Assembly (NCBI RefSeq): GCF_016446285.1
Contig: NZ_CP054140.1
Coordinates: forward strand, 1,717,501-1,781,500
DNA length: 64,000 bases
Source of the DNA: Desulfobulbus oligotrophicus
GTDB lineage: Bacteria > Desulfobacterota > Desulfobulbia > Desulfobulbales > Desulfobulbaceae
Direction of reading: 5' to 3'
The notes below the pieces were generated by a model, which was not told the origin of the DNA, ran no database searches, and saw only the letters and a program-made list of their open reading frames with translations. The translations under genes and the position numbers were made by a program. How positions within the stretch are numbered: the first letter of the stretch is position 1; every line of letters begins with the position of its first letter. This document shows positions 6,929 to 39,104 of this stretch, in pieces.

Positions 6929-6931
6929 AAA

Positions 6932-8275
6932 TCATCTCTCCTGGTCGAATTGGCGCAGACCGATGGCACGGCGTAGATCAGCGATGGCAGTCTTTCGGGC
7001 GGCCGTGGCCTGATCATGGCTTAAGCGGGCGTCAGTGAGTCTGTTTTCAGTGTCAATGAGCTCTGCGGTCAGCAGGGTTCCCTCTTGAAAACGAAGCCGG
7101 GCAAGTCGAGCGCTTTCAGTGGCTGCAGCCACTCTTGCCCCGGTTACTTTCAGCCGTTCTTCTTCCTGGCGGAGGGCAAGAGCTGCCTGCTCCATCTCCA
7201 GATTGCAGTCCAACTCCATCTTTCGCTGTTGCTCTTTAACAGCTCGCCATTGTGCTTCCGCCCTGGCAACAGATGCTTCGACCTGTCGACCTTCATAGAG
7301 CGTGTAGTGTAATCGGACTCCAGCCACCCAGGAGTTGCCGGAGCCTTTTTCCAGCTCAGTTCCTTTGTCTGTCTGCACACTGCCAAAGGCATCGGCTGTC
7401 GGTAAAAATGCTGCTCTGGCCTGCCGGATATGCGCTTCCTGTGCCTTGACAAGCGCTGCAATACCAGCCAGCTCCGGGCGATTGTGGGTGTGACGCTGGG
7501 TAGGAACCTCGGGGCCTGATTCGGTTGTGGCGTCAATGGACACCGTTTTTTCAGGAAGTCCGAGTAGTGAAAGAAACGCATGTTTCGCAAGCTTCAGACC
7601 ATGTTCAGCCCGGATATACAGCTCCTGAGTCCTGGCCTGCTGGACTTCAAGATTCAACACTTCCTCGTGCAGGAGACTGCCCTCTTCAAAACGGGCCCGG
7701 CCCACCTGCAAAGATGCCTGTATCGCCTCAACTGCAGACCGCATGATTTTTACCGTATCTTCACTCTGGGCAATGGTGTAGAAGGCCCGCACAACCTCAT
7801 ACTCCAGGCGGTTACGGACGGCCTGGTGGTCATATCGTGACATCTTGCTGCGTTCATCGGCGGCCTGGATAGCGGCCAGATCATGTCCACCGTTGTACAG
7901 CTGGTACTGCACGGTCGCCTTGGCCCGCAGGTTGTCGGTGGTACCGGGGTTGTTGAAGTTGATGGTCTCGTTAAATACTCCCTGATTGAGGATGTTGCCG
8001 AATGAGTACATGGGATTGTCTGTACGATGATACTCGGCGCTGACCCCAAGGCGCGGGTAAAGAACAGCCCTGACGCGCTCTATGTCGTGATCCGCAGCCC
8101 GGATTCGTTCCAGGGCGGCCCCGATGTCTGGATTGTGGGTAAGAGCATGCTGGACCGCTTCACGAACAGTCCATTGTTTTTCTGCAGAAGGGCGGTCATC
8201 GGCTGACAGGAGCAGCGGAGCACCTGTTGCTGCACACAGCAGAAGGAGGATGAGGAGATAGCGGAGCATAAGCAT
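6932..8275 (-). CDS. TolC-family outer membrane efflux protein
   Basis: This is the outer-membrane channel of the efflux operon and its first gene. The 447 residues begin with a signal peptide (hydrophobic residues 5-24, then SADDRPSAEKQ). They contain the two repeats typical of the OEP family, each with long alpha-helical stretches rich in Ala, Glu, Arg and Gln (around residues 40-240 and 255-440). The opening WTVREAVQHALTHNPDI is a hallmark of the family. Two in-frame ATG codons, at 8275 and 8269, could both start it. A candidate operator lies upstream in the divergent promoter region. Confidence 0.9.
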   Translation of the reverse strand: MLMLRYLLILLLLCAATGAPLLLSADDRPSAEKQWTVREAVQHALTHNPDIGAALERIRAADHDIERVRAVLYPRLGVSAEYHRTDNPMYSFGNILNQGVFNETINFNNPGTTDNLRAKATVQYQLYNGGHDLAAIQAADERSKMSRYDHQAVRNRLEYEVVRAFYTIAQSEDTVKIMRSAVEAIQASLQVGRARFEEGSLLHEEVLNLEVQQARTQELYIRAEHGLKLAKHAFLSLLGLPEKTVSIDATTESGPEVPTQRHTHNRPELAGIAALVKAQEAHIRQARAAFLPTADAFGSVQTDKGTELEKGSGNSWVAGVRLHYTLYEGRQVEASVARAEAQWRAVKEQQRKMELDCNLEMEQAALALRQEEERLKVTGARVAAATESARLARLRFQEGTLLTAELIDTENRLTDARLSHDQATAARKTAIADLRRAIGLRQFDQER

Positions 8276-23162: not shown

Positions 23163-24935
23163 ATGGCCCGGTCGTCTAAAAATCCTGCTCCGATTATAAC
23201 CTTTGTTCTCGTTGCCCTTGTTTTGGTCGGTGTTCTCATCACCCGTGAATATACAACTTCGCGACCGGAACAGCTTGCCGTGACCACCTCCGGTATGGTT
23301 GAAATGTGCTTGAATTGCCATACCGATGAAAAGCTGGATGGCGCCCATGATCGTTTAGTCGTCGGCTGTTCACCCTGTCATCTCGGTGACCCGTTGGCTA
23401 TTGATAAGGACAAGGCGCATGCGGGTATGGTGCTCAACCCCGGTGATTTACGATGGGTTGAAAAGACCTGTGGTGTCGAGGGGTGTCATCCCGCTGATAT
23501 CGGTAAGGTGAAAAACTCGTTGATGGCGACAAATCGGGGTATTTTAGCAACACTCCTGTACTATTGGGGAGAAGAGGAGCACCAGCATGCTGACATAAGC
23601 GTTGAGCAACTGCTGAAGACCGGTAAAAACTCCCTTGCCCTTGATTACTACCGCAAGTTATGTGCAACCTGCCATTTGTGGAAACAGAAGAACGATCTGC
23701 CCGGTGCACCCGCCTTTTTTAACGAGAAGGGTGGTGGTTGTTCAGCCTGCCATTACATCCTTCCCTCAGAGGTACCGAGAAATACGGTCACCACGGAACT
23801 CTCTGACAAGACTTTGAAGGCAGTCAAAAAAAGTCTTCCCCACCCTCAGGTGGTTAAACAGATACCAACGGAAAACTGTGTGCGCTGTCATAACCGGTCC
23901 GCCCGGATCGGCCTGTCGTACACGGGGGTTTTCGAATCTGAAGGGTATGGAACCCCTTATGAGAAGGGGGAGCAGACCACGCAACGGCTGCCCGGTGATC
24001 GTTTTTACTTGCAGATAGCTGATGATGTTCACCATGCAAAGGGGATGGAGTGCATTGATTGTCACACCCGTGAGGAAGTCATGGGTGATGGGACCAGCTA
24101 TGCACACTATGAGGAGCAAATTGAGATAACGTGTGCAAGTTGTCATAGCGACAGCCCCGGGTTAACCCGTAAAAACAATCCGTTGAATAACCTTTCCCGC
24201 AAACAGGGCCAATGGTTTCTTACTGGTAAGGTTGATGGAAAAGAACGGTTGCTCCGGCCGGCATCACAGCAGGTTTGTCTGATGCCGGCGCATAAACGGG
24301 TCTCTTGTTCGGCCTGTCATTCCTCCTGGGTCCCCCAGTGCTACGGGTGCCATATAAAGCGCGATAAACGGGAATCACATCTTGATAAACTGACGTTGAA
24401 AGAGACCCCGGGCTGGTGGGAGGAGGGACGGTCGTACATCCGCTATGAGAGACCAATGCTTGCTGTCTGGGGAGAGGAGGTGGTGATAGTCACTCCCGGA
24501 TGCCAGGATCTGGTCACGCTTGTTGACGAGCAGGGTGCGGCAGAGGGCGGGTTTAACCGGTTTACGATGGCTGCCATCAACCCGCACACCATCCAGGCTA
24601 AGGGCCGGACGTGTAAAGACTGTCACGCCTCTTCAAAAACAGTTGGACTGGGAGAGGGGAGTGTTGAGAAGAAGAACGGGCAGTGGCACTTTACTCCGGT
24701 TGATCGCGGTGTGGAAAATGAACATGGCCGGACACCCGGTTTTGACAATTTTGTGACCATCGATGGTACTCCTCTGCAGCATGGCTCTCGTGCCAACTTG
24801 CGACCCTTTAATGGCGAAGAACTTCGACGTATCCTGCGGGTCGGTCTGTGTCTTGAATGTCACCCGCAGGCAGATGATCCAGCCTATCGAAATTATGATT
24901 CGCAGCGCCCCTGTCCGGTTTATGTTGAACCGTAG
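23163..24935 (+). CDS. Membrane-anchored multiheme cytochrome c (about 12 hemes)
   Basis: The 590-residue protein has an N-terminal transmembrane anchor (about residues 9-27) and then a periplasmic part with eleven CXXCH heme motifs: CLNCH, CSPCH, CATCH, CSACH, CVRCH, CIDCH, CASCH, CSACH, CYGCH, CKDCH and CLECH. One CX4CH motif (Cys103 to His109) is of the kind known from cytochromes c3, giving up to 12 hemes. The architecture suits electron transfer between the quinone pool or periplasmic carriers and a terminal acceptor. No partner subunits are adjacent: nadE lies upstream and an aminotransferase downstream. I do not recognise a named family. Confidence 0.9.
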   Translation: MARSSKNPAPIITFVLVALVLVGVLITREYTTSRPEQLAVTTSGMVEMCLNCHTDEKLDGAHDRLVVGCSPCHLGDPLAIDKDKAHAGMVLNPGDLRWVEKTCGVEGCHPADIGKVKNSLMATNRGILATLLYYWGEEEHQHADISVEQLLKTGKNSLALDYYRKLCATCHLWKQKNDLPGAPAFFNEKGGGCSACHYILPSEVPRNTVTTELSDKTLKAVKKSLPHPQVVKQIPTENCVRCHNRSARIGLSYTGVFESEGYGTPYEKGEQTTQRLPGDRFYLQIADDVHHAKGMECIDCHTREEVMGDGTSYAHYEEQIEITCASCHSDSPGLTRKNNPLNNLSRKQGQWFLTGKVDGKERLLRPASQQVCLMPAHKRVSCSACHSSWVPQCYGCHIKRDKRESHLDKLTLKETPGWWEEGRSYIRYERPMLAVWGEEVVIVTPGCQDLVTLVDEQGAAEGGFNRFTMAAINPHTIQAKGRTCKDCHASSKTVGLGEGSVEKKNGQWHFTPVDRGVENEHGRTPGFDNFVTIDGTPLQHGSRANLRPFNGEELRRILRVGLCLECHPQADDPAYRNYDSQRPCPVYVEP

Positions 24936-26327: not shown

Positions 26328-27311
26328 TCAGCTGTCTGCCGGCGGTGTCGAGAGTTGACTTTTATTGAGGAGAGACTGCAGTTTCCAGGGGGAAGAGAGG
26401 CATTCACGGCCAAGATGATTTTTGGCCACAACCTCACAGAATCGGAGGAACTCGGCCATCAAACGGGTGATGATTTTGTCCTTGTGCTGAATGATCCAGA
26501 GCTGGCGGCTCATGTCCATACCCTCAATGGGTAAAATTTTAAGCCAACCCTCCTCAGCCTCTCGACCGACCGTCAACATAGAGAGACAGGCCGCACCCAC
26601 ACCGGCTTCCACCGCCTTTTTTATGGCCTCAGTGTGGCCGGTTTTAGTGACTACTCGTAAGAAAGAAGCGTGGCGGCCGAGTTTTTTTGTAAAGATCTCA
26701 GCTGTCCCTGATCCTTCTTCCCGCATAACCCAACTTGTTTCCTTAAGATCGTCCGGAATCCGAAAGGTTGTTCTCTTGGCCAGGTTATGGGTTGAGCTGA
26801 CAATAATTCCCAGCTCGTCTTCAAACCATGGGGTGGCTACCAGCGCATCCACATTGATATCCCCTTCCACAAAACCAAGATCAGCCTGACCCGTGGCTAC
26901 TAACTTTTCTGCGGTCATGGTATTGACGACCAGCATGTTGATATGTGCCTCCGGGTGGAGGTGCATGAAGGTGCCGATGAGATAGGGGAGAACGTAGTTA
27001 CCGAGGGTGGTGCTGGCGACTATTTCGAGAACGCCGGCAACAACATCCTGCTGTTCCGTGAGGATGGTCTCAATATTGGCGACCTGATGTAAGATATTTT
27101 TGGCAAGAGGGAGGAGGTAGCGACCACGATCATTGAGCAGTAAGCTTCGACCGTGTCGGTCAAAGAGGTGACCACCCAACTGGTTCTCCAGTTCACCAAG
27201 GGCCATGCTGACAGCAGACTGAGTAAGCAGTAATTTTTTGCTGGCCCGTGTGACCTGTTGTGTTTCAGCGACGGCAATGAATATTTCTATCTGCCGGAAA
27301 GTAATTGGCAT
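26328..27311 (-). CDS. LysR-family transcriptional regulator
   Basis: The 327-residue protein has the N-terminal winged helix-turn-helix of LysR regulators (RQIEIFIAVAETQQVTRASKKLLLTQSAVSMALGELE region, residues 6-43). A periplasmic-binding-like effector domain (about 90-295) follows, resembling CysB/CbbR/YeiE-type proteins. It is divergent from the nuo operon, the usual arrangement for a LysR protein and its target. GTATCAGT motifs lie beside its own start and beside the nuoA start. This makes autoregulation and control of complex I a reasonable inference. The inducer is unknown. Confidence 0.92.
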   Translation of the reverse strand: MPITFRQIEIFIAVAETQQVTRASKKLLLTQSAVSMALGELENQLGGHLFDRHGRSLLLNDRGRYLLPLAKNILHQVANIETILTEQQDVVAGVLEIVASTTLGNYVLPYLIGTFMHLHPEAHINMLVVNTMTAEKLVATGQADLGFVEGDINVDALVATPWFEDELGIIVSSTHNLAKRTTFRIPDDLKETSWVMREEGSGTAEIFTKKLGRHASFLRVVTKTGHTEAIKKAVEAGVGAACLSMLTVGREAEEGWLKILPIEGMDMSRQLWIIQHKDKIITRLMAEFLRFCEVVAKNHLGRECLSSPWKLQSLLNKSQLSTPPADS

Positions 27312-27541: not shown

Positions 27542-27570
27542 CCGGTCTCATGGCTGACGAAGGAGCGGAA

Positions 27571-27978
27571 ATGGATCAGGTTGTTCTCACCGACATCATC
27601 TACATTGCCATTTTCTTAATGGGAGCCCTCCTGTTCGGAGTCGGGCCGATCATCATAGTCAAGCTGGTGAGCCCCACCTCACATACCAGACAGACAGCCG
27701 ACCGCACTGATCAGTTGATCGAGTGCGGTATGGAACCCATCGGTACCGCCTGGATTCGTTTTGGTATCGTTTATTACCTGTACGCCTTGATTTTCCTCGC
27801 CTTTGATGTTGATGTCATCTTTCTTTTTCCCGCAGCGGTTGCTTACAACCATCCGGAACTTGGCGTTCAGGACTTTTTTGAAATAGTACTGTTTGTTGCC
27901 ATCCTTTCATTGGCCATTGTTTACGCCTGGCGCAAAGGAGTTTTTACATGGGAGAAGAAAGCGTACCTTCGTCAATAG
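27571..27978 (+). CDS. nuoA: Complex I subunit NuoA
   Basis: NuoA is a three-helix membrane subunit near the quinone site of complex I. The 135 residues contain three hydrophobic segments and the hallmark loop with YECG-like [15 protein letters not shown] and the acidic [13 protein letters not shown] helix. The start at 27571 is preferred to ATG 27550 because AAGGAG lies 5 bp before it. The gene opens the operon. Its 3' end overlaps nuoB by 31 bp within a tandem duplication. Confidence 0.94.
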
Positions 27979-28466
27979 AAAGTGTACCTTCGTCGATAGT
28001 TCAGTTTGCACAACTGGATAAGCTGCTGAATCTCGGTCGGGCCAATTCATTGTGGCCCATGACCTTCGGGCTTGCCTGCTGCGCCATTGAGATGATGTGC
28101 ACCGGTGGTTCCCGTTACGACATCTCCCGGTTCGGGGCTGAAGTGTTTCGACCCTCTCCGCGACAAAGTGATGTGATGATCGTCGCCGGAACCATCAATA
28201 AGAAACTCGAGCTGGCCGTTAAAACACTGTACGACCAGATGCCTGAACCCAAATGGGTGATTGCCATGGGGAACTGCGCCATCAGTGGCGGACCGTTTAA
28301 AGTCAAAAACAATTATAATGTGATTGAGGGAGCGGACAAACTTTTTCCTGTAGATGTCTATATCCCCGGTTGCCCTCCCCGACCCGAAGCATTGCTTGAG
28401 GGTATTATGACCCTTGAGGAAAAGATAACCGGCAAACGGCGTTGGCCGCGAGTAGAGTCGTGCTGA
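27948..28466 (+). CDS. nuoB: Complex I subunit NuoB (N2 cluster)
   Basis: NuoB carries the terminal 4Fe-4S cluster N2 that reduces quinone. The ligands are visible as the paired cysteines in [11 protein letters not shown], then [10 protein letters not shown] and [10 protein letters not shown]. The 172 residues start with a direct repeat [14 protein letters not shown] (residues 4-17) created by a 21-bp duplication. This extends the overlap with nuoA and adds seven residues to a normally variable N-terminus. The cluster-binding core looks unaffected. Confidence 0.95.
27957..27998 (+). repeat. 21-bp tandem duplication at nuoA/nuoB junction
   Basis: Units 27957-27977 and 27978-27998 differ at only two third-codon positions of nuoB. 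Each encodes ESVPSSI in the nuoB frame, and the nuoA stop TAG is also duplicated in the nuoA frame. Confidence 0.9.
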
Positions 28467-28479
28467 AGAGGGCAATCTT

Positions 28480-29019
28480 ATGACGATATGCGAAAAACTT
28501 CAGCAGGCATTGCAACCGCTTTTCCCCTTGTGTGATGTGTCTTCTGAACCACTGGTAAAGGATGAACCTCAGGTCGCTGATTCTGAAAAAGAGGAGTCGC
28601 AGACTGCTGATACGCCGACTGTCGGAGTGCTGTGGACTGATGCAGGCAGGTATGGCCATCATCTTGATATCGTCTGCCTTCCAGACCAGGTGGTGCCTGT
28701 GGCCGGTATTATGGACAGGGAGGGGTTCTTCCTTGAGGCCATTACCGGCGTTGATTGGCTCAAGCGACAGCAACTTGAAGTGGTGTACGATTACAATCGG
28801 TTGGGCGGTGAACATTGCCGGGTCATGGTCAGAACATTTCTTCCCCGCAATAATCCGGTCGTACCGACGGTCTCCTCGGTTTTTCCGGCTGCTGACTGGC
28901 ATGAACGAGAAACCTATGACTTTTATGGAATACAGTTTCAGGGTCATCCAAACCTGATCCGCATCCTGCTGCCTGAAGATGCTGATTTCCATCCCCTCCT
29001 CAAGGATTATACCCCATGA
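28480..29019 (+). CDS. nuoC: Complex I subunit NuoC (30 kDa)
   Basis: NuoC is a peripheral-arm scaffold subunit next to NuoD. In this 179-residue protein the conserved segments are the domain around DVTGVDW-like TGVDWLKRQQLEVVYDYN and the family signature ERETYDFYGIQFQGHPNLIRILLPEDADFHPLLKDY at the C-terminus. An acidic insertion near residues 24-45 (KDEPQVADSEKEESQ) is unusual but at a variable site. It is not fused to NuoD, whose ATG overlaps the stop codon by four bases. Confidence 0.93.
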   Translation: MTICEKLQQALQPLFPLCDVSSEPLVKDEPQVADSEKEESQTADTPTVGVLWTDAGRYGHHLDIVCLPDQVVPVAGIMDREGFFLEAITGVDWLKRQQLEVVYDYNRLGGEHCRVMVRTFLPRNNPVVPTVSSVFPAADWHERETYDFYGIQFQGHPNLIRILLPEDADFHPLLKDYTP

Positions 29020-30134
29020 GCGTTCCTCTCCATCTGCGGTCGGATGAAGTTTTTGTTCTCAATCTGGGGCCGCAGCACCCTGCCACCCACGGTGTCCTCC
29101 GGGTGAAGCTCACCATGGATGGCGAGTATATTGTCAAGGCGGAACCGGTATTGGGATACATTCATCGCATGCATGAAAAGATGGCGGAAGACGGCATCTT
29201 TGCTCAGTTTATGCCCAATACCGCCCGTATGGATTACCTGCATGCCCTTGCCTTTAACCATGGTTGGGCCCTGGTCGTTGAAAAGGCAGCCGACATTGAA
29301 GTCCCTGAACGTGCCGAGTATATCCGGGTTATCACCGTTGAACTCAACCGTATAGCCAGCCACCTCTTGTGGTGGGCGGCATTTCTTTTGGATCTGGGTG
29401 GCTTTACTCCGCTGTTGTATGCCTTTGATGATCGCGAAAAAATTATTGATCTGCTTGAGCGTGTCACAGGATCGCGGTTGACGTACTGCTACATGCGTTT
29501 CGGTGGCGTCTTAAACGACATTGACGATGAGTTCATCACCGGTACCCGTGACTTTATCAAACGGCTTCGCAGCCGTCTGCCGCGCCAGTATCATGATCTG
29601 GTCACACACAATATTATTCTCATAAAACGAATTAAAGATATCGGTTTTGTTTCAGCTGAGCAATGTCGTCGTTACGGTGCAACCGGACCTGTGGCCCGCG
29701 GTTCAGGCATCAACTACGATGTCCGTAAAAATGAACCGTACTCGGTTTATCCGGAGTTTGATTTTGATATCCCGGTTTTTCCGGAAGGCGATTCCATGGC
29801 TCGTTACATGGTCCGCATGCATGAAATTGAGCAGTCGATGCGTATCATCGAACAGGCGCTTGACAAGCTGCCTGCCGGTCCGGTGATGGGCAAGGCACCA
29901 CGGCAGTTGAAACCCGATGCCGGTTACTACTATTCGGCGGTTGAAACTGCCAGAGGGTTACTCGGTCACCGACTGGTCTGTGATGGAGACAAAAATCCCT
30001 ACAAACTGAAACTGCGTTCACCAACCTTTTCCAACCTGAGTCTGTTCGGCGAAGTCGCTGAAGGCATGCTGCTGGCAGATGCTTTGGCCTTCATGGGGAG
30101 CCTTGACCTGGTTATTCCCGAAATAGATCGCTGA
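29016..30134 (+). CDS. nuoD: Complex I subunit NuoD (49 kDa)
   Basis: NuoD forms the quinone-binding cavity with NuoB. The 372-residue protein has LGPQHPATHGVLR (residues 13-25), with the histidine lining the quinone site, and the central ARMDYL and YSMGV-related regions typical of the family. It ends in the normal LAFMGSLDLVIPEIDR. It lacks the [NiFe] cysteines of the related hydrogenase large subunits, so it is a true complex I subunit. Translation is probably coupled to nuoC through the ATGA overlap. Confidence 0.95.
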   Translation: MSVPLHLRSDEVFVLNLGPQHPATHGVLRVKLTMDGEYIVKAEPVLGYIHRMHEKMAEDGIFAQFMPNTARMDYLHALAFNHGWALVVEKAADIEVPERAEYIRVITVELNRIASHLLWWAAFLLDLGGFTPLLYAFDDREKIIDLLERVTGSRLTYCYMRFGGVLNDIDDEFITGTRDFIKRLRSRLPRQYHDLVTHNIILIKRIKDIGFVSAEQCRRYGATGPVARGSGINYDVRKNEPYSVYPEFDFDIPVFPEGDSMARYMVRMHEIEQSMRIIEQALDKLPAGPVMGKAPRQLKPDAGYYYSAVETARGLLGHRLVCDGDKNPYKLKLRSPTFSNLSLFGEVAEGMLLADALAFMGSLDLVIPEIDR

Positions 30135-30152
30135 CCGGCGGAGGAGTCATTG

Positions 30153-31145
30153 ATGGAAACAAGTGTGTGGCGTGCCCTGCTTTATCTGGTGGGTATCATG
30201 GTCTTTGCCGGACTCAATGCCGCCTATCTCGGCTGGTGTGAAAGAAAGGGAGCCGGCCGGATTCAGCGTCGTATCGGCCCCTGTGAGGTGGGGTATGCCG
30301 GTTTGCTCCAACCAATAGCCGATGGTGTGAAGCTGTTGAGCAAGCAACTCCTGGTTCCGCGCGGTGTTGACCATATCCTTTTTCGCACAGCACCGGTTTT
30401 GGCTATGATTCCGGCCATGACCTCGATGGTGGCGATACCTTTTTCAGCAAACATTCAGGCACGTGCTATTGAGCTGTCTGTCCTCTTACTTTTTGCCCTG
30501 GCATCAATCGGGATGATGGCTGTGCTTCTGGGAGGCTGGGCTTCCGGAAACAAGTACGCCATCATCTCCTCGGCTCGGGCCGTCTCCCAGAATCTGGCTT
30601 ATGAAATCCCAATGCTGGTGACAGTCATCACAGTGGTGCTGCTCACCGGCTCCCTTGAACTGCGGGAGATCGCTCTTAAGCAGCAGGGTGGGTTCTGGCA
30701 CTGGAATGTTTTCCGTCTGGAAAATGGTCATTTTCTGACCATGTGGATCTCGTTTATCATTTTTTTCATCTGCTCTGTTGCGGAGACCAACCGGGCACCG
30801 TTTGATATGGCTGAGGCGGAAAGTGAACTGGTGGCCGGATATATGACGGAATACAGTTCCATGGGGTTCGGCCTTTTCATGATGGGCGAGTATCTTAACA
30901 TCGTGGTTGGTGCTTGTCTGACGACGACGCTCTTTCTCGGAGGGTGGGACTGCCCCCTTGGTCTGACACCGGGTGTCTGGTGGTTTTTAATTAAAATTTA
31001 TATCCTTATCTTTACATTTATCTGGATTCGCTGGACCTATCCGCGCACGCAGATCTATAAGCTCCTGAATCTTTCCTGGAAGTTTCTGATTCCTTTTTCT
31101 TTTGCGAATCTTTTGATTACAGCCGCTTTGATTAAGGTGTTTTGA
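30153..31145 (+). CDS. nuoH: Complex I subunit NuoH
   Basis: NuoH is the eight-helix membrane subunit that links the quinone cavity to the pump modules. The 330 residues contain ERKGAGRIQRRIGP on the first loop and the conserved acidic loop VAETNRAPFDMAEAESELVAGYMTEYS facing the quinone channel. The C-terminal FIWIRWTYPRTQIYKLLNLSWKFLIP is also typical. ATG 30153 is preferred to the TTG just before it because GGAGGAG is then 7 bp upstream. Confidence 0.96.
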   Translation: METSVWRALLYLVGIMVFAGLNAAYLGWCERKGAGRIQRRIGPCEVGYAGLLQPIADGVKLLSKQLLVPRGVDHILFRTAPVLAMIPAMTSMVAIPFSANIQARAIELSVLLLFALASIGMMAVLLGGWASGNKYAIISSARAVSQNLAYEIPMLVTVITVVLLTGSLELREIALKQQGGFWHWNVFRLENGHFLTMWISFIIFFICSVAETNRAPFDMAEAESELVAGYMTEYSSMGFGLFMMGEYLNIVVGACLTTTLFLGGWDCPLGLTPGVWWFLIKIYILIFTFIWIRWTYPRTQIYKLLNLSWKFLIPFSFANLLITAALIKVF

Positions 31146-31147
31146 CG

Positions 31148-31603
31148 ATGAACCAATATTGGACAGATATTATTTATGGCGGTAAAAGCCTGCTCACCGG
31201 GCTCGCCATCACTGCACGGGAGTTTTTCAGTCCGGTGGTTACGGAACAGTATCCGTACGAAGTACCGACCATGACGCCGTTGTTTCGCGGGCATACTGAG
31301 TTGATCGGCAATGAGGAAACCGGTCTGCCGAACTGCGTTGTCTGCGGGGCCTGTCCCAGGGCCTGCCCGTCCAACTGTATTACACTGGAGGGTAAAAAGG
31401 CGGAGAGCGGCAAGGGGCGGGTGTTGACCCGGTATATCCTTGATTTCAGCAAGTGCAGCCTCTGTGGTCTGTGTGTTGAAAGCTGTAAGTTTAATGCGCT
31501 GCGTTTTTCCAGGGATTACAATCTTGTCAGTTTCGATAAAGACGATTTTATCTATATGGATTTAATGAAAAGATTGGAGGAACAGAACAGATGCAAGAAA
31601 TAA
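31148..31603 (+). CDS. nuoI: Complex I subunit NuoI (two 4Fe-4S clusters)
   Basis: NuoI passes electrons to N2 through clusters N6a and N6b. The 151 residues carry two full ferredoxin motifs, CVVCGACPRACP and CSLCGLCVESCK. Because nuoE, nuoF and nuoG are absent, NuoI is the outermost Fe-S subunit encoded here, and a soluble carrier such as ferredoxin could dock near it. The downstream nuoJ start overlaps the end of this gene. Confidence 0.95.
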   Translation: MNQYWTDIIYGGKSLLTGLAITAREFFSPVVTEQYPYEVPTMTPLFRGHTELIGNEETGLPNCVVCGACPRACPSNCITLEGKKAESGKGRVLTRYILDFSKCSLCGLCVESCKFNALRFSRDYNLVSFDKDDFIYMDLMKRLEEQNRCKK

Positions 31604-32163
31604 TCTGTCAGACCGAAGCTCCTGCCGATCTTTTTTCTGCAGAGGCAATGGTCGGGTTGATCTTTCTGATGGCCGTGTTTCTTGTTGTTGCAGGTGCCGT
31701 TGTCGCCGTGGCAAGCGGGGGGCGAGTGCGTTCAATGCGTTTAGTCCGTGCGATCGCCGGTCTGGCTGTCTGTTTTTCCGGGTTAGCCATAGTGTATTAC
31801 TATCTGCTCAGTCCGTTTCTGGCGATGATGCAGCTGTTGATCTATGTCGGCGCTGTATCGGTTCTGATCGCTTTTGGAATTATGATGGCTACGCCGGATG
31901 CCGGCAAGCTCTCAGGTATGAAAAATCCTGCAGCTCTGGCGGGGCCCCTTGCCCTCGGGGTCGGCGGATTGCTGTTTGCGGGGTTGACGGTCCTCGTCGC
32001 CAGAACCCAGTGGCAGCCTTGGCCACGTCAGAAATCAGGGGATATTGAGGCAATCGGCTTATCCCTTTTAACGACTCATTCCATGGTCTTCGAACTCATC
32101 TCCATTGTTCTGTTAATGGCTATTATAGGTGCTTTGGTCCTGGCGCGAAAGGGAAGGAGTTGA
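31591..32163 (+). CDS. nuoJ: Complex I subunit NuoJ
   Basis: This 190-residue membrane subunit has five predicted helices (starting near residues 20, 50, 70, 105 and 155). It includes the conserved QLLIYVGAVSVLIAFGIMM segment, which holds the helix that changes conformation in coupling. GGAGG lies 9 bp before the ATG, inside the nuoI coding sequence. Confidence 0.93.
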   Translation: MQEIICQTEAPADLFSAEAMVGLIFLMAVFLVVAGAVVAVASGGRVRSMRLVRAIAGLAVCFSGLAIVYYYLLSPFLAMMQLLIYVGAVSVLIAFGIMMATPDAGKLSGMKNPAALAGPLALGVGGLLFAGLTVLVARTQWQPWPRQKSGDIEAIGLSLLTTHSMVFELISIVLLMAIIGALVLARKGRS

Positions 32164-32166
32164 TCT

Positions 32167-32493
32167 ATGTTTCTTCTGAATTTGCACAACTGCCTGACAA
32201 CTTACCTGGTGCTGGCCGCCCTGTTGTTTGCTTTTGGCATGTACGGCATGGTCACACGACGCACGGTCATCGGCATGTTGATTTCATCCGAACTGCTTCT
32301 TTCCGCTGCATCCACTAATTTTATTGCGTTCAGTCGATTCTTAGCCCCTGATCCTGCTACTGGTCAGATTTTTGCACTGTTTATCATGGCGATTGCCGCT
32401 GCCGAAGCCGCCATTGCTGTCAGTATCATGATTGCCGTCTACCGGAACTACAAATCGGTCGACACTGAAGATCTTGTCGACCTGCAAGGGTAA
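32167..32493 (+). CDS. nuoK: Complex I subunit NuoK
   Basis: NuoK (108 residues) has three helices with the membrane glutamates in LISSELLLSAASTNF and in AIAAAEAAIAVSIMIAVYRNY, which take part in the proton path. AAGGAG precedes the ATG, and the gene follows nuoJ directly. Confidence 0.94.
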   Translation: MFLLNLHNCLTTYLVLAALLFAFGMYGMVTRRTVIGMLISSELLLSAASTNFIAFSRFLAPDPATGQIFALFIMAIAAAEAAIAVSIMIAVYRNYKSVDTEDLVDLQG

Positions 32494-32508
32494 ACGGAGA
32501 ACTGGTCT

Positions 32509-34005
32509 ATGGAAACCCTTCTTGTTCATGCCGATATCATAGAAAATTCGAATCTTTTACTGGCAGTCATCATACCGTTGTTCGGCAGTCTGGTGGTCAT
32601 GACGTTGCGGGAACATCCGAATTTAAGGGAGTTTGTCTCGTCAAGCGCATCGGTTTTGTTGTTTTTGATGGTGCTGTCGTTTATTCCGGCACTGCAATCC
32701 GGACAAACCCTGGTGTACCCGATCTTTCAACTCCTTCCCGGCCTGTCGATCACCCTTCGGGCAGACGGCTTTTCCATGATCTTTGCCCTGGTGGCTTCAT
32801 CATTATGGATGATAGCCGTGTTCTATTCCCTGGGGTATATGCGGGCCCATGATGAACCGTGCCAGACCAGGTTCAATGCCTGCTTTGCCCTGGCGATTTT
32901 CGGGGCCATAGGTGTGGCTTTTTCCGACAATCTGCTGACCCTGTATCTTTTTTATGAGATTGTCTCGATCTGCACCTATCCGCTGGTGGCGCATCATCAA
33001 GATGAAGAGTCGTATGAGGGGGCCAGAAAGTACATTGTGTATCTGACCGCAACAGCCAAATTTTTTCTCCTGCCGGCGTTGATTCTTATTTATGTTCTTT
33101 CCGGAACGCTGGATTTTCCACACAATATCAATACCGGCATCATCCCTGCCTCCACTACTGAGTGGGTAGTGATCATGCTCTATATCTTTTGTCTCTTCGG
33201 GTTTGCCAAAAACGGGATCATGCCTTTTCATCACTGGCTTCCCGGTGCAATGGTGGCCCCGACTCCGGTCTCCGCCCTTCTCCATGCAGTGGCTGTGGTC
33301 AAGGTCGGCGTGTTCTGTACGACCCGAACCATGTTGTACATCTTTGGCGTTGATCTCATGGACAGTCTGAACCTTGGGATACCAACCGCCTACTTTGTCG
33401 GTTTTACAATTATCGTGGCATCGATGATTGCCCTGTCCAAGGATAACCTGAAGGCACGACTCGCCTATTCAACGGTGAGCCAACTGTCCTATATTATCCT
33501 CGGAGTGGCGCTCCTGACACCACACGCCATAGAAGGCGGACTCCTCCACATTGTCAATCATGCCTTCTCCAAGATAACCCTGTTCTTTTGCGCAGGTGCC
33601 ATTTACATCGCAGCTCATAAGAAGTGTATCTCGGAAATGGGTGGACTCGGGCGAGTTATGCCCTTCACATTCGGGGCCTTTGCTGTGGCATCTCTTTCCA
33701 TGATCGGTGTACCGCCGGTAGCGGGCTTTGTATCTAAATGGTATTTGCTGGTCGGTTCGATGGAGGCACATCAAGTGGGTATTGTTCTCATTCTGATAGC
33801 TTCCACGGTGTTGAATGTCGCTTACTTTGCGCCGGTCACCTATAAGGCTTTTTTCGGAAAGCCACCGGAAGGAGAGGTGACGGGCGGCATTAAAGAAGCA
33901 CCACTCAGTATGCTTATCCCGTTGTTGATTGCGGTGACTGTTTCGGTGATTATCGGCATTTACCCTAACTTCATGATGCAATTTGTATGGATGATAACAG
34001 GATGA
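32509..34005 (+). CDS. Antiporter-like complex I subunit (NuoL/MrpD type, short)
   Basis: The 498-residue protein is a member of the NuoL/M/N-MrpA/D proton-translocating family, with about 14 helices. The TM5 glutamate region LYLFYEIVSICTYPLVAHH, the TM7 lysine region FGFAKNGIMPFHHWLPGAMVAPTPVSALLHAVAVVKVG and the broken helices are present. It stands where nuoL would be, but it lacks the long amphipathic C-terminal helix of NuoL and reads closer to MrpD or formate-hydrogenlyase-type subunits. Together with the 596-residue homologue downstream it gives this operon four antiporter-like subunits instead of three. Confidence 0.85.
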   Translation: METLLVHADIIENSNLLLAVIIPLFGSLVVMTLREHPNLREFVSSSASVLLFLMVLSFIPALQSGQTLVYPIFQLLPGLSITLRADGFSMIFALVASSLWMIAVFYSLGYMRAHDEPCQTRFNACFALAIFGAIGVAFSDNLLTLYLFYEIVSICTYPLVAHHQDEESYEGARKYIVYLTATAKFFLLPALILIYVLSGTLDFPHNINTGIIPASTTEWVVIMLYIFCLFGFAKNGIMPFHHWLPGAMVAPTPVSALLHAVAVVKVGVFCTTRTMLYIFGVDLMDSLNLGIPTAYFVGFTIIVASMIALSKDNLKARLAYSTVSQLSYIILGVALLTPHAIEGGLLHIVNHAFSKITLFFCAGAIYIAAHKKCISEMGGLGRVMPFTFGAFAVASLSMIGVPPVAGFVSKWYLLVGSMEAHQVGIVLILIASTVLNVAYFAPVTYKAFFGKPPEGEVTGGIKEAPLSMLIPLLIAVTVSVIIGIYPNFMMQFVWMITG

Positions 34006-34280
34006 CCAACTGTACGACTTTTTTACAAACCCGACAAAAAACACTGGTTGCACTTGGTTGGACGCTGCTGGTGCTGATTGCCGGTGCGTCTTTAGTGGTT
34101 GACTCTGGAAGCGCTCATTCGTGGGCTGAGCAGCATGTACCTTTTTTCTGGTCGCTGTTCGGTTTTATCGCCGCAGTTGTGATCATCGGCATTGCCCGAT
34201 GGCTCGGACGTTCCGGTATTCAGGCCCCGACCGACATATATGATCGCTCCCTGACTCCAATCTGTGAGGAAGAAGAATGA
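34002..34280 (+). CDS. Small two-helix membrane protein in nuo operon
   Basis: The 92-residue product has two hydrophobic segments (LVALGWTLLVLIAGASLVV, about residues 14-32, and FFWSLFGFIAAVVIIGIARWLG, about 48-69) and an acidic tail ending EEEE. I do not recognise a family. Both its start and its stop overlap its neighbours by four bases (ATGA), so it is translationally coupled to the two antiporter-like genes. It is probably an accessory subunit of the membrane arm. The upstream ATG at 33987 is less likely as the start. Confidence 0.8.
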   Translation: MTNCTTFLQTRQKTLVALGWTLLVLIAGASLVVDSGSAHSWAEQHVPFFWSLFGFIAAVVIIGIARWLGRSGIQAPTDIYDRSLTPICEEEE

Positions 34281-36067
34281 GCTTTGGTTTCATCCACCCC
34301 TCTTTGCTGCTGATACTGGGTGCGTTTCTTGTGCCATTCATTCGTGGACCGTTGCGGCAGCCGTACCTCTTTTTCATTCCCCTGCTGACCCTGGTGACGG
34401 TGGTGTTCAACAGTTCATTGACCGGTAATTTCGGAGTGGTGTCATTTCTCGAGTGGCAACTGGTCTTTGGTCGCATCGACAGGCTGACCACGGTATTTGC
34501 CCTGATCATGGCCCTGATGGCCGTTCTTGGGACGCTGTACGGACTGCATGTTGATCGGGCTGCAGAGCACATCGCTGCCTGGTTGTATGCGGCTGGATCC
34601 CTTGGTGTCATTTATAGCGGCGATTATCTCAGCCTCTTTGTATTTTGGGAGATGATGGCTTTTTCCTCGGTTTTTCTCATCTGGTTCAGAAGGGGTCCAC
34701 AATCGATACAGGTTGGGTATCGTTATCTTCTTATCCATACCATCGGCGGTATTATGCTGCTTGGCGGTATCGTCTTACACTATAATTCGGTGGGTAATCT
34801 TGTTTTCACGCATTTGGATGTCACTGCCCCTGATCTCTCCACCTGGCTCATTCTGATTGGTTTCGGGTTAAATGCCGCCATCGTTCCCCTACATTCCTGG
34901 TTACCCGAAGCTTACTCTGAAGCCTCGTTCAATGGTGCGGTCTTTCTCTGTGCCTTTACCACCAAAACAGCAGTGTATGCCCTGGCACGGGGCTTTGCCG
35001 GTATGGATATTCTCATCGTACTTGGCGTTATCATGGCGCTGTACGGTGTTATTTATGCGGTTATGGAAAATGATATCCGTAAGCTGCTGGCCTGGTCGAT
35101 TGTATCACAGGTAGGGTATATGGTTGCCGGTATCGGTATAGGGACTGAGCTGGCCATCAATGGAGCCGTTGCCCATGCAGTTATCCATATCCTGTATAAA
35201 AGTCTGCTGTTTATGGGAACCGGAGCGGTTTTGTACATGACCGGGAAGACCAAGTTCACAGAGTTAGGTGGACTGCATGCCAAGATGCCTGTCACCTTCT
35301 TTTTTACTCTTGTCGGCTGTCTGTCGATTTCAGGGGCTCCATTTTTCGCTGCATACGCCAGCAAATCGATGATCATCACCGCTGGGTTTGAACACCACCT
35401 CAACTGGGCTCCATGGTTGTTGATGTTTGGTGCCACCGGAACCTTTCTGTACAATGGACTCAAGTTGCCTTATTTCCTCTTTTTTGGACGGAACAACTGT
35501 ACCGGATCCACGTGGGAGCGGGCAGCCGATCCATCCTGGAACATGCTGGTCGCCATGACTCTGGGTGCCACCCTCTGTATTCTGGTCGGCACCGGGCCCG
35601 GTTTTCTCTACGCGCTTCTACCCTATGCGTCCGCCTATACACCACATACCCTCTATCATTTTGTGGAAACCCTGCAGTTACTCGGGTTTGCAACGTTGGC
35701 CTTTGTTTTGCTGAAACGATACCTTGAACCGGTTGATCGCCTCCTGGTTGATCTTGATTGGCTGTACCGGCATGTGGGATGCGCCTTTTTATGGCTGGTC
35801 AGGCATCCACTGCAGTGGCTTGATACAGCATGGGGGGAAGCTTACCGGACGGTGGGCATTTATTGTTTGATGGTTGTCAGCCGCTTTTGGAGCTGGTTTG
35901 ACTGGCACGCCATTGATGGGGTCGTTGACGGTCTTGCCAGGTCGGTGAAAGGGACCGGTAACAGGCTTCGCATCCTGCAGAGCGGCCAAATCCAGCTGAC
36001 TTTGTATGCAGTGTTTACGCTTGCTGCTATTTTGCTGGTCACCTTTATTTTCTATCAGTTGCTCTAA
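34277..36067 (+). CDS. Antiporter-like complex I subunit with NuoL-type C-terminus
   Basis: This 596-residue protein is a second NuoL/MrpD-type subunit. The pump core includes LFVFWEMMAFSSVFLIW (TM5 glutamate), GFGLNAAIVPLHSWLPEAYSEAS and ILYKSLLFMGTGAVLY. After about residue 460 it continues with a tail containing WFDWHAIDGVVDGLARSVK and LRILQSGQIQLTLYAVF. This resembles the end of true NuoL proteins, where a lateral helix runs along the membrane arm and is anchored by a last helix. It is therefore the best NuoL candidate of the operon although its core is MrpD-like. Confidence 0.85.
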   Translation: MSFGFIHPSLLLILGAFLVPFIRGPLRQPYLFFIPLLTLVTVVFNSSLTGNFGVVSFLEWQLVFGRIDRLTTVFALIMALMAVLGTLYGLHVDRAAEHIAAWLYAAGSLGVIYSGDYLSLFVFWEMMAFSSVFLIWFRRGPQSIQVGYRYLLIHTIGGIMLLGGIVLHYNSVGNLVFTHLDVTAPDLSTWLILIGFGLNAAIVPLHSWLPEAYSEASFNGAVFLCAFTTKTAVYALARGFAGMDILIVLGVIMALYGVIYAVMENDIRKLLAWSIVSQVGYMVAGIGIGTELAINGAVAHAVIHILYKSLLFMGTGAVLYMTGKTKFTELGGLHAKMPVTFFFTLVGCLSISGAPFFAAYASKSMIITAGFEHHLNWAPWLLMFGATGTFLYNGLKLPYFLFFGRNNCTGSTWERAADPSWNMLVAMTLGATLCILVGTGPGFLYALLPYASAYTPHTLYHFVETLQLLGFATLAFVLLKRYLEPVDRLLVDLDWLYRHVGCAFLWLVRHPLQWLDTAWGEAYRTVGIYCLMVVSRFWSWFDWHAIDGVVDGLARSVKGTGNRLRILQSGQIQLTLYAVFTLAAILLVTFIFYQLL

Positions 36068-36079
36068 AGGGAAGGAAAG

Positions 36080-37597
36080 ATGGAATTATTGCTTATCAAA
36101 GAGGGGTTTCCTCTCCTGAGTTTTCTCATTTTTCTCCCCCTGGTCGGAGCTGTTGTCTTACTGTTTTTCCATGGACAAACTTTTGCCCGCTTCTGGGCGT
36201 TACTTGTTACCGGGGTAACTGCCGTCAGCTCGATTCCCCTGCTCATAAGTTTTGATAGCAGCAGTACGAAGTACCAGTTAGCCGAAGCCTACTCGTGGAT
36301 TCCACGGTTTCACATCAACTATATTGTCGGTGTAGACGGCATTTCAATTCTTCTGGTCCTTCTGACAACGCTCATCATGCCGTTTTGCGTACTGGCATCC
36401 TGGAAGTACATCCAACAGCGGGTGGCACCTTTTATGTTTTGCCTGCTGGTCATGGAAACCTCCATGATAGGCGTGTTTGTGGCGCTTGATTTTGTCCTGT
36501 TTTATATTTTCTGGGAATTTATGTTAATCCCGATGTACCTGCTGATAGCTGTTTGGGGTGGTCCACGCAGGGTGTACGCTTCGATTAAATTTTTCCTGTA
36601 CACCCTTGCCGGATCAGTCCTTCTTCTGGTAGCCATCATAGCCCTCTATCTCAAGTCAGGCAGTTTCTTTATCCCTGAGATGATGTGGCAACCGTATTCA
36701 CTTACCTTTCAGATTCTTGTATTTTTAGCCTTTTTCTTGGCCTTTGCCATCAAGGTACCGATGTTTCCTTTCCATACCTGGTTGCCTGCAGCTCATGTGG
36801 AGGCGCCGACCGCGGGATCCGTTATCCTGGCATCGGTCCTGCTCAAAATGGGAACATACGGCATGCTCCGCTTTTGCCTGCCCATCACACCTGATGCCAC
36901 CTTCCTTTTAGCAACACCCATTCTCTGGTTATCGATAGCCGGTATTATTTATGGTGGTTTCACTGCTTTGGCGCAGCAGGATATGAAAAAGCTGATAGCC
37001 TATTCTTCGGTAGGGCACATGGGGTTCGTCACCCTGGGGATCTTCGTTCTTAACACCCGCGGAGTTGAAGGCGCAATCTTACAAATGGTCAATCACGGTG
37101 TAACGACCGGTGCTCTCTTTCTTTTAGTGGGTATGATCTATGAACGCACCCATAGTCGGGAATTGGCCCTGGCAACGGGTGTGGGGCGGTATATGCCTTG
37201 GTTTGTCACACTGCTGACCTTTTTTTCACTTTCCGCTTTCGCCTTTCCTGGAACCAATTCGTTTATCGGTGAATTTATGGTGCTGGCCGGGGCATTCCAA
37301 CACAACACTGCATTGGCCCTGGCAGCTATCCCGGGTGCCGTGCTGGCCGCTGCCTATATGTTGAGGATGCTGCAGAAAATTGTCTGGGGAGGAACAGCTA
37401 ATCCTGATCAATCGTATCTGACCGATCTCGGTGTTCGGGAAGTAGTGGTGCTCACGCCTTTCCTGCTGTTTGTTTTTTGGATAGGGTTGGGACCGCAGCC
37501 CTTTGTTAACCTGATCCATGGATCGGTAAACCATTTACTTGAACAGTTGCAGGACTGGCAACAACACCAACAGGTAGCCAGTGTGCTGTGGCATTGA
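36080..37597 (+). CDS. nuoM: Complex I subunit NuoM
   Basis: NuoM is an antiporter-like pump subunit of 505 residues with 14 helices. Family marks include the TM5 glutamate in FYIFWEFMLIPMYLLIAVWGG, KVPMFPFHTWLPAAHVEAPTAGSVILASVLLKMGTYG with the TM7 and TM8 residues, and HMGFVTLGIF. Sequence and length are ordinary for NuoM. AAGGGAAGGAAAG precedes the ATG. Confidence 0.95.
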   Translation: MELLLIKEGFPLLSFLIFLPLVGAVVLLFFHGQTFARFWALLVTGVTAVSSIPLLISFDSSSTKYQLAEAYSWIPRFHINYIVGVDGISILLVLLTTLIMPFCVLASWKYIQQRVAPFMFCLLVMETSMIGVFVALDFVLFYIFWEFMLIPMYLLIAVWGGPRRVYASIKFFLYTLAGSVLLLVAIIALYLKSGSFFIPEMMWQPYSLTFQILVFLAFFLAFAIKVPMFPFHTWLPAAHVEAPTAGSVILASVLLKMGTYGMLRFCLPITPDATFLLATPILWLSIAGIIYGGFTALAQQDMKKLIAYSSVGHMGFVTLGIFVLNTRGVEGAILQMVNHGVTTGALFLLVGMIYERTHSRELALATGVGRYMPWFVTLLTFFSLSAFAFPGTNSFIGEFMVLAGAFQHNTALALAAIPGAVLAAAYMLRMLQKIVWGGTANPDQSYLTDLGVREVVVLTPFLLFVFWIGLGPQPFVNLIHGSVNHLLEQLQDWQQHQQVASVLWH

Positions 37598-37638
37598 TGC
37601 ATTCCTTCTGTTTTGGGTTTTCATATCCATTGATGATC

Positions 37639-37657
37639 GGACCGCTGTCAGCGGTTC
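37639..37657 (+). other. Hairpin between nuoM and nuoN
   Basis: ACCGCT-GTC-AGCGGT (37641-37655), extended by one wobble and one C-G pair, forms an 8-bp stem in the 91-bp nuoM-nuoN gap, the largest gap inside the operon. There is no T-tract, so it may mark RNA processing or stabilise one half of the message. Confidence 0.35.
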
Positions 37658-37688
37658 AGGTTGAGGCAATACGTTGCAAGGCATATAT

Positions 37689-39104
37689 ATGACTATCTTT
37701 CCCGAACTTGTTCTGGCCGCTGGCGCGCTGACTCTTTTTCTGGTCAGTCTTGCCAAGACACCTTCTGAGCGACTGTCCTACGCAGTGGCTTTGGTGTTTG
37801 GCACGGCAACATTCGTTGCGACTCTGCTTTCGTTTCACTCCCAGGGGCTGCTGTTTTACGGTGCGTATGCTGTTGATCAGTATTCGCAACTGTTTAAGGT
37901 ATTAATCGCTTTTTCCCTGCTCATCAGCCTTGGTTTTGTAAAAAATCTCAAAGGGGTAAGTATAGACATCCATGCAGAGTACTATCTGTTCCTTCTGCTC
38001 TGTGTACTCGGCCTGATGATGCTTGTAAGTTCGGTTGAACTTATTGCGATTCTTGTGTCATTGGAGCTCTCTTCTTTTGCTCTCTACCTTCTGGTTCCCA
38101 TGCGGGATGATCGTACCGGTCTTCGTATGCAGATGGAAGCCGGTATGAAGTATATTCTGTTTGGTATCATGGCAACCGGATTTATGCTGTACGGGATGAG
38201 CCTCCTCTTCGGCCTGACCGGTACCACCTATCTGAAAGACATTTTAGTCTTTTTGGGAAACAGTCCGCCTCAGCCTGTTGTGGTGATTGCCATTCTCATG
38301 GTTCAAGCCGGCTTTCTTTACAAATTGGCCGCATTTCCCATGCATTTTTGGGTACCGGATGTGTATCAAGGTGCATGCAATGCGACTGCCGGTGTCATAG
38401 CAACACTCCCTAAATTTGCAGCTGTAGCCCTCCTGATTCGATTTTTTATTCTGCCGACCGGTCATGCACCAATGGTCGTGGAGTTGCTTGCTGTTCTGGC
38501 TCTGTGTTCGATGTTTTACGGGAATCTCTGTGCTCTGGTACAAAAAGATTTGAAGCGGATGCTTGGATTTTCAGGCATTGCCCATGCCGGTTTTATCCTC
38601 TTGGCACTGCTGACCCTCAAGGCTGAAGGATATGGCGTGGCGATTTACTATATTGCCGGTTATGTACTGATGAATCTGGCCTGTTTTCTGGTCATTAATC
38701 AGGCTTCTCAAGGTGGTGAGAATGTACGAATTGATGATTTAAGCGGATTGTACAAACGACAGCCAATGCTCGCGTTTGTGCTGGCCACCGGGTTGTTTGG
38801 ATTGGCCGGCATACCCCCGTTTATCGGCTTTATGGGCAAGTTTCTGGTGTTGACCACTGTGCTGCGTGCAGATCATTTACTTGTGGTCTGTTTGGCTGTA
38901 ATCAACACCGCCATTGCCATTTATTACTACCTGTCGGTTGTCAAGGTCGTCTATACGGTTGAGCCTGAGGACAGACCAGCTATTGCGGTTGGACCGATGG
39001 TGCAGCTCAGCGGTATTGTTTTGGTCATTATGATCACGCTGCTTGGTGTTTTCCCGGGAAAACTTGTCGATTACGCCAGTACGGTCGTGCAATCGTTACA
39101 TTGA
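37689..39104 (+). CDS. nuoN: Complex I subunit NuoN
   Basis: NuoN is the antiporter-like subunit nearest the peripheral arm. The 471 residues show the TM5 glutamate in VSLELSSFALYLLVPM, the TM7 lysine in FLYKLAAFPMHFWVPDVYQGACNATAGVIATLPK and GIAHAGFILLALL. ATG 37689 is taken as the start, with AAGG about 9 bp before it, rather than TTG 37674. It ends the operon, 83 bp before the convergent glyA. Confidence 0.94.
   Translation: MTIFPELVLAAGALTLFLVSLAKTPSERLSYAVALVFGTATFVATLLSFHSQGLLFYGAYAVDQYSQLFKVLIAFSLLISLGFVKNLKGVSIDIHAEYYLFLLLCVLGLMMLVSSVELIAILVSLELSSFALYLLVPMRDDRTGLRMQMEAGMKYILFGIMATGFMLYGMSLLFGLTGTTYLKDILVFLGNSPPQPVVVIAILMVQAGFLYKLAAFPMHFWVPDVYQGACNATAGVIATLPKFAAVALLIRFFILPTGHAPMVVELLAVLALCSMFYGNLCALVQKDLKRMLGFSGIAHAGFILLALLTLKAEGYGVAIYYIAGYVLMNLACFLVINQASQGGENVRIDDLSGLYKRQPMLAFVLATGLFGLAGIPPFIGFMGKFLVLTTVLRADHLLVVCLAVINTAIAIYYYLSVVKVVYTVEPEDRPAIAVGPMVQLSGIVLVIMITLLGVFPGKLVDYASTVVQSLH

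Follow-up and report, generated by a model that had tools for sequence, protein, structure and literature searches.

A predicted green-type complex I with four antiporter-like subunits, encoded without an NADH module in Desulfobulbus oligotrophicus

Introduction

Green complex I is the type that Degli Esposti and Martinez-Romero described from rhizobia (PMC9040806, PMC7415380, PMC4967309, PMC5419562); statements from the literature are given here as they stand in the available parts of the cited papers. In a stretch of 64,000 nucleotides of Desulfobulbus oligotrophicus (contig NZ_CP054140.1, positions 1,717,501 to 1,781,500; the whole stretch is called the window), we analysed a complex I operon which, judged by its families, gene block and identity to the rhizobial operons, is a variant of green complex I and not the rhizobial form. 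The type is known but little studied; in the bacterium examined, the pump-like membrane proteins number four where three are usual, and the NADH-oxidising part is absent. A previous sequence-only reading of the window had mentioned known variants with an added pump subunit, leaving it undecided whether the pair found here is of that kind, and the described green complex I answers to it.

It is disputed whether one proton passes through each antiporter-like subunit or all protons leave via the outermost one, as in the "domino" proposal (PMC10212512). The operon offers a natural test of proton movement in complex I, as a subunit has been gained, which most likely sits at the far end, and the subunit with the tail is without one switch residue in every sequence examined.

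Gene content and subunit families

The operon comprises 13 genes on the plus strand (27550-39104) in the order nuoA-B-C-D-H-I-J-K, P1, S, P2, nuoM, nuoN, with intergenic gaps of -31 to +76 nt. The Open Reading Frames (ORFs) of P1, P2, NuoM and NuoN are all intact and score 157-250 bits each against PF00361 (cut-off 21.5); the four antiporter-like subunits counted by the sequence-only reading do lie in one run with nuoA-K. P1 (32509..34005; 498 aa) scores 817 bits against NF006236 (cut-off 663) and P2 (34277..36067; 596 aa) scores 699 bits against NF009310 (cut-off 564); the corresponding Sinorhizobium plasmid proteins reach 853 and 792 bits. By family, tree and residues, P1 is assigned as a NuoL/MrpA-type antiporter-like protein without lateral helix, and P2 as an MrpD-type core followed by a NuoL-type lateral helix and a last transmembrane (TM) helix. 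The other two are nuoM (36080..37597; 505 aa; TIGR01972, 607 bits, cut-off 264) and nuoN (37674..39104; 476 aa; TIGR01770, 340 bits, cut-off 333), the last gene, which lies just past the range 32509-37597 quoted before. There is no NuoL other than P1/P2 in the operon.

Between P1 and P2 lies a small ORF that had been overlooked, S (33987..34280; 97 aa), with two hydrophobic stretches by eye and a rhizobial counterpart. S has no NCBIfam match and no Pfam match above the cut-off, and an alignment of 80 sequences shows conserved H, E, W, G, D and Y.

Compared with two rhizobial sets, the identity is 52/52% for P1, 47/48% for P2 and 32/34% for S. In a plasmid collection, P2 matches were found in 387 records, 106 of them with at least 80% coverage; among the matches listed (30 of 387 records), all come from Rhizobium, Sinorhizobium or Ensifer, at 47-48% identity to P2. 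The nearest named relative of P2, among the best 80 of at least 563 relatives, is from a Desulfobulbus metagenome-assembled genome (90% identity).

The genes upstream encode the rest of the complex. The operon opens with nuoA (27550..27978; PF00507, 97.6 bits), followed by nuoB for the N2 cluster subunit (27948..28466; PF01058; motifs CC-x5-C and GCPP), nuoC (28480..29019; PF00329), nuoD (29016..30134; PF00346 and NF004739 for NuoD, both above cut-off), nuoH (30150..31145; PF00146, 368 bits), nuoI (31142..31603), nuoJ (31591..32163; PF00499) and nuoK (32167..32493; PF00420). NuoI exceeds the cut-off of PF12838 and has two CxxCxxCxxxC motifs at residues 65 and 105, and its top NCBIfam models are NuoI, all scoring below their cut-offs. 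Thus the catalytic B-C-D-H-I core is complete, with the cluster motifs of NuoB and NuoI kept. Using rhizobial NuoE, F and G as queries, no counterpart was found among all window ORFs of at least 50 aa, and the low-potential donor supposed by the sequence-only reading is therefore plausible, as the operon has no NADH module.

Two neighbouring genes were recorded as well. A multihaem cytochrome c of 590 aa with many CxxCH motifs is encoded at 23163-24935, about 2.6 kb upstream of the operon, and a LysR-type regulator (by eye; 26328-27311, minus strand), divergent from nuoA, is a candidate regulator of the operon.

Phylogeny of P1 and P2

P1 and P2 were named as an MrpD-like pair in the sequence-only reading, which the analysis does not support in that form. 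A quick 70-row tree gave long-branch warnings, and relic rows as well as HyfD of E. coli were kept out of a careful 47-row tree. In the latter, P1 forms a clade with NuoL and MrpA (support 100/98), which does not bear out an MrpD-type P1, a label that stems from database names only. P2 joins MrpD (89/92), and a grouping of P2 with NuoL and MrpA was rejected (approximately unbiased (AU) test, p-AU 0.0146). Among solved chains searched by sequence, the top one is MrpA for P1 and an MBS subunit for P2. In the C-terminal part, the tail resemblance to NuoL was borne out, as residues 66-589 of P2 align with positions 79-628 of the 630-position NDH_I_L profile, at 145.7 bits and below the cut-off of that model. 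Judged from these sequence comparisons, the label "two MrpD-like subunits" conceals a NuoL/MrpA-type core without tail (P1) and an MrpD-type core with tail (P2).

Several points weigh against the placement of P2. Its support with MrpD is moderate, MBH/MBS subunits are absent from the tree, yet P2 has MBS 6u8y_X as its closest solved relative by sequence, and the AU test was chosen after the first quick tree. The fold comparison fails to separate the NuoL, MrpA and MrpD kinds: the best Foldseek rows of P2 are MrpA and the best VIA-align rows NuoL, in near ties.

Length of the P2 lateral helix

P2 was modelled alone with AlphaFold2 from 34 sequences (mean predicted local distance difference test (pLDDT) score 84.6). 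In this model TM15 spans residues 459-483, and a single helix runs over 493-595 including the last TM helix, with the lateral helix at residues 493 to about 568 (35753..35980, plus strand). The stretch that separates DWxY/DExY from LQxG (SENG in E. coli) is 69 residues long in P2 and in rhizobial P2, compared with 45 and 44 in the canonical NuoLs of the same genome and 40 in E. coli. A script over 83 P2 sequences gave a spacing of 69 (n=30), 70 (n=22) or 74 (n=19), with a regex artefact of 10 (n=2) and no match for ten; Mrp-borne P2 copies are without the LQxG motif. Counted from motif to motif in the tail alignment, the distance is 43-48 in canonical NuoL (n=21), and in P2 it is 72-73 (77 of 83), 83 (five) or 9 (one truncated sequence).

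The structure alignment gives the same register. VIA-align matches, in a search that barely probes P2 residues past 525, end at P2 513-514, opposite residues 561-562 of E. coli NuoL (7z84, 7p7c, 7zci), or at P2 525, opposite 572-574 (3rko_B, 9q8i, 7z7s and others), and the resulting offset of 47-49 agrees with the shared DWLY motif (P2 494, E. coli NuoL 542; offset 48). By motif and structure register, the P2 helix has an excess of 24-29 residues, or about 36-44 angstroms, i.e. one subunit. The lateral helix of P2 is thus predicted to be about 25 residues, or about one subunit, longer than the canonical one, which is what the check proposed in the sequence-only reading had asked about. In E. 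coli, six- or seven-residue insertions at P552 of the lateral helix cut pumping strongly (PMC3274701).

This length estimate also meets objections. The tail is the least certain part of the P2 model (residues 481-596, block-wise pLDDT 51-80), the longer-running rows (8e9g_L, 9bwd_l, 8e73_5M, 7p7m_L, 7p7e_L) take another register at a root-mean-square deviation of 5.9-12, and MAFFT put the two helix-start motifs in different columns. A hand count that starts where TM15 ends gives an excess of about 11 residues only, because the loop ahead of the motif is shorter.

Key charged residues

Residues were compared in E. coli numbering, for fetched-locus sequences above score and length limits, with shorter pieces dropped and many close relatives included. 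The alignment was read per subunit, as the NuoM TM7 lysine stands four columns off L, N and P1 (772 vs 768) and P2 is gapped at the TM8 histidine column. The TM7 lysine is kept in P1 (73 of 73), M (76 of 76) and N (70 of 70), and in none of 83 P2 sequences, which have Asn (82) or Ser (1). For example, P2 of the window has N199 (codon at 34871..34873, plus strand) at the place of NuoL K229, NuoM K234 and NuoN K217, and retains E125, K230, K308 and K363.

All 83 P2 sequences keep the TM5 Glu, the TM8 Lys, the counterpart of NuoL K342 (TM10 Lys) and the TM12 Lys, and because of this P2 probably conducts protons. In P1, the TM5 Glu, the K342 counterpart and the TM12 Lys are present in 73 of 73 sequences and the TM8 Lys in 71 of 73; P1 of the window retains E150, K234, K265 and K410. 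Beside the TM12 Lys, 21 of 23 ORFs pooled from canonical loci have an acid (D in NuoL); in this pool 21 qualified as NuoL in the tail alignment and not every member was checked as NuoL. MrpA has E there in four of four sequences. At this position P1 carries W in 66 sequences and L in 7, which would fit a P1 that has ceased to be the terminal subunit.

The TM7 lysine is part of an ion pair or switch in present models (PMC9271201, PMC10212512). In Bacillus pseudofirmus, MrpA-K223A and MrpD-K219A abolish antiport (PMC5703873); we take both residues to be counterparts of the TM7 lysine. NuoL K229A was reported to reduce pumping and activity strongly (PMC4938563, citing Nakamaru-Ogiso). A finding of the same paper speaks against a strict need for the residue: MrpA K196A and NuoL K229A were nearly harmless in a B. 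subtilis complementation assay (PMC4938563), so the missing lysine of P2 may be tolerated.

Distribution and electron input

A contig scan gave at least 563 P2 relatives, and the best 80 were retained as loci with flanks of up to 10 kb, many of which end at contig ends. By title, these 80 loci are mainly from Desulfobulbales and Verrucomicrobiota, plus Geobacteraceae and others. P1, S and P2 occur together in 76 of the 80, although S was not found in one fetched locus with P1 and P2 (L089). The full set of A-D, H-K, P1, P2, M and N is present in 54 loci, 43 of them in exactly the order of the window, and E/F/G-type genes (nuoE/F-type) were found, within these flanks, in one locus (L059). Matches above the NF009310 cut-off, which take in Mrp-borne copies, exist in 46 of 55 relatives' genomes (the window's included) and in 95 of 197 genomes from an even draw of the phylum.

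Four genomes that are 93-98% complete (G034, G036, G047, G048) and one of 86% (G025) contain exactly four PF00361 genes, with NuoD matches at one place each, and no NuoF (PF01512) match was found in these five assemblies. As far as the assemblies show, the green-type operon is the sole complex I of the four genomes, and NADH entry via NuoF is not possible in any of the five. Since the sole complex I of four genomes at least 93% complete has no NuoF, the donor would be other than NADH, probably ferredoxin. Another genome, G039, has four PF00361 genes too, but two NuoF-like genes elsewhere.

The window's genome tells against this donor. It is one contig of 3.10 Mb with ten PF00361 genes in three clusters (four in the green-type operon, three and three), and it has three NuoF-type (PF01512) genes, one of them in another nuo cluster, so the green-type complex could borrow an NADH module. 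E, F and G adjoin one of the other clusters (L104). The remaining cluster (L103) shows neither E nor F within the stretch fetched; a 704-aa molybdopterin oxidoreductase (5185-7299 of the locus), directly upstream of its nuoA, is possibly the electron input of that cluster.

In Desulfurivibrio AMeS2, one nuo cluster (RS03515-03575) without NuoEFG was reported, with expression that is not high but strongly upregulated in sulfur disproportionation, and its authors considered an unknown donor or hydrogenase-type NuoEFG as electron source (PMC12142623). The AMeS2 genome contains an A-B-C-D-H-I-J-K-P1-S-P2-M-N operon, which we take to be this reported cluster. Complete nuo sets were called characteristic of Desulfobulbaceae (PMC5109826). 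The operon studied here also suggests that a complex I variant which may be taken for ordinary Nuo, as it was in the work on AMeS2 (PMC12142623), operates in many anaerobes of the sulfur cycle.

Two genomes of the window's genus hold a diverged cluster, in which genes resembling P1, P2, M and N are seen in G018 (L114) and those resembling P2, M and N, up to the contig end, in G013 (L115), at 33-38% identity over the matched parts and with no further nuo gene matched in the fetched stretch. These relic proteins placed poorly in the large alignment, and three were checked pairwise. In L114, P1 has lost all four charges, M is without TM5 E, TM8 K and TM12 E and has R for the TM7 K, and P2 is without TM8 and TM12 K with TM5 E kept. 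The frames are open, yet judged by these losses the cluster is apparently dead as pumps. G018 has neither a NuoF match nor a green operon, and its sole NuoD gene adjoins a different pump cluster.

Proposed architecture and alternatives

In the explanation that we consider likely, the product of the operon is a complex I of the green type that has no NADH module of its own. Electrons would enter the B-C-D-I arm from a non-NADH donor and not via NuoF, probably from reduced ferredoxin, and would reduce a membrane quinone, probably menaquinone. The membrane arm would be ordered A/H/J/K - N - M - P1 - P2. P1 most likely holds the NuoL place with P2 beyond it, because the P1 core is of NuoL/MrpA type without lateral helix and the tail helix of P2 is about 25 residues longer; P2, added at the far end, would clamp the arm by this helix, anchored near N. 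The gene set, the families, the affinities of P1 and P2, the residue pattern and the helix length (by motif and structure register) are read from the sequence, and the subunit order, the donor and the ions moved are what we infer from them.

The role of P2 is less certain. According to the sequence-only reading, a fourth pump would change the ion-to-electron ratio. On this view, which published work on four-pump complexes shares, one proton would pass through each of P1, P2, M and N and one through the E-channel, giving five per two electrons, paid by the ferredoxin-to-menaquinone span. By textbook potentials, this span is about 0.4 V per electron, enough for about five protons, and the conserved P2 charges, the helix longer by about one subunit and the four NuoF-less genomes fit the same picture. 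In addition, where a complex has gained one or two subunits, a figure of 5 to 6 ions was proposed (PMC9040806). However, the TM7 ion-pair lysine is absent in all 83 P2, its presumed counterparts MrpA K223 and MrpD K219 are essential for antiport, and the reported effect of NuoL K229A points the same way. The changed ratio is thus unproven and weakened; a fifth pumped proton cannot be assumed from such sequences, and we regard the four-pump enzyme as a serious possibility that falls somewhat short of an even chance. Because P2 has no TM7 lysine of the ion-pair switch, a terminal outlet or a differently gated relay seems slightly likelier, at roughly even chances. A wider proposal is put forward tentatively: P2, outermost and with its ion-pair switch lost, would be proton outlet and clamp, with the stoichiometry set by N, M and P1; P1-S-P2 would be a portable end module for NuoL or MrpA; and the complex would be a ferredoxin-fed sole complex I in several relatives.

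The subunit order could also be reversed: P1 would be outermost and P2 would stand where NuoL does, its helix being in effect of canonical length. P2 does carry the tail, and the excess counted from TM15 is small, but 24-29 residues are obtained from the structure register and likewise from the shared DWxY motif, P1 is without the TM12-adjacent acid found in NuoL and MrpA, and where a fifth subunit is present, MrpD2 of Complex_I_3 has a further lateral-helix insertion of 26 residues compared with rhizobia (PMC9040806). We consider the reversed order unlikely. It is far less probable still that P1-S-P2 belong to an Mrp-type antiporter of their own whose genes sit by chance in a nuo operon. In five of the 80 loci the fetched stretch does contain P1 and P2 but no nuo gene, and in a Desulfurivibrio locus (L087, 3896-11773) P1-S-P2 follow MrpE, G, B, a NuoK/MrpC-like gene and MrpD, with MrpA absent; Pfam or the tree identified the E, G, MnhB and MrpD-type genes there, and F and C were recognised by eye. 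This operon is like the window in having P1-S-P2 of the same families with Asn in P2, and unlike it in standing in Mrp genes, with zero redox subunits and a P2 without the LQxG motif; judged by its gene content, the cassette seems to substitute for MrpA. In the one-contig genome of the window, however, MrpE (PF01899) and MrpG (PF03334) gave no match, with G001 and G243 positive in the same searches. Moreover, P1, S and P2 overlap one another, P1 starts 15 nt past nuoK, P2 ends 12 nt ahead of nuoM, and the operon has no other NuoL. A separate Mrp antiporter, which the sequence-only reading had named as its possible refutation, is therefore excluded in the window.

Comparison with known complex I types

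The canonical 14-subunit complex I has NuoE, F, G and one NuoL, while the window operon is without E/F/G and has NuoL replaced by P1 and P2. The 2M complex I of Nitrospira and others (Chadwick et al. 2018), compared by its description in PMC9040806, likewise has four antiporter-like subunits and a lateral helix that is lengthened, but it retains NuoL and has a second NuoM as the added subunit. The 2M type is ruled out for the window, which has one NuoM, with P1 grouping with NuoL/MrpA and P2 with MrpD. Complex_I_3 of Ca. Manganitrophaceae, also compared by description (PMC9040806), shares a rhizobium-like pair in place of NuoL, and has two NuoM and five antiporter-like subunits as features of its own. 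In the available text of the full-text search matches on green complex I, a set outside which the 2016/2018 source papers fall, the missing TM7 lysine, the NuoL-type P1 and the type's presence in the window's phylum are unmentioned, and no priority is claimed for these points.

The rhizobial green complex I remains the closest. The rhizobial type is described with a rearranged whole-operon order and a NuoG with an extra cluster (PMC7415380, PMC4967309), neither of which is seen in the window. The two rhizobial regions read J-K-P1-S-P2-M-N-A-B-C-D-E-F-G with I and H on the opposite strand, whereas the window is collinear and without E/F/G. Rhizobial M and N group with the other nuo operon of the window's genome (91/85); a single clade of all green M and N was not rejected (p-AU 0.158), in a tree where this genome's L104 cluster (own104) and E. 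coli are very long branches. Both forms share the NF006236 and NF009310 pair with a small protein between, replacing NuoL, together with the J-K-P1-S-P2-M-N block, the 69-residue helix stretch and the Asn at the TM7 place.

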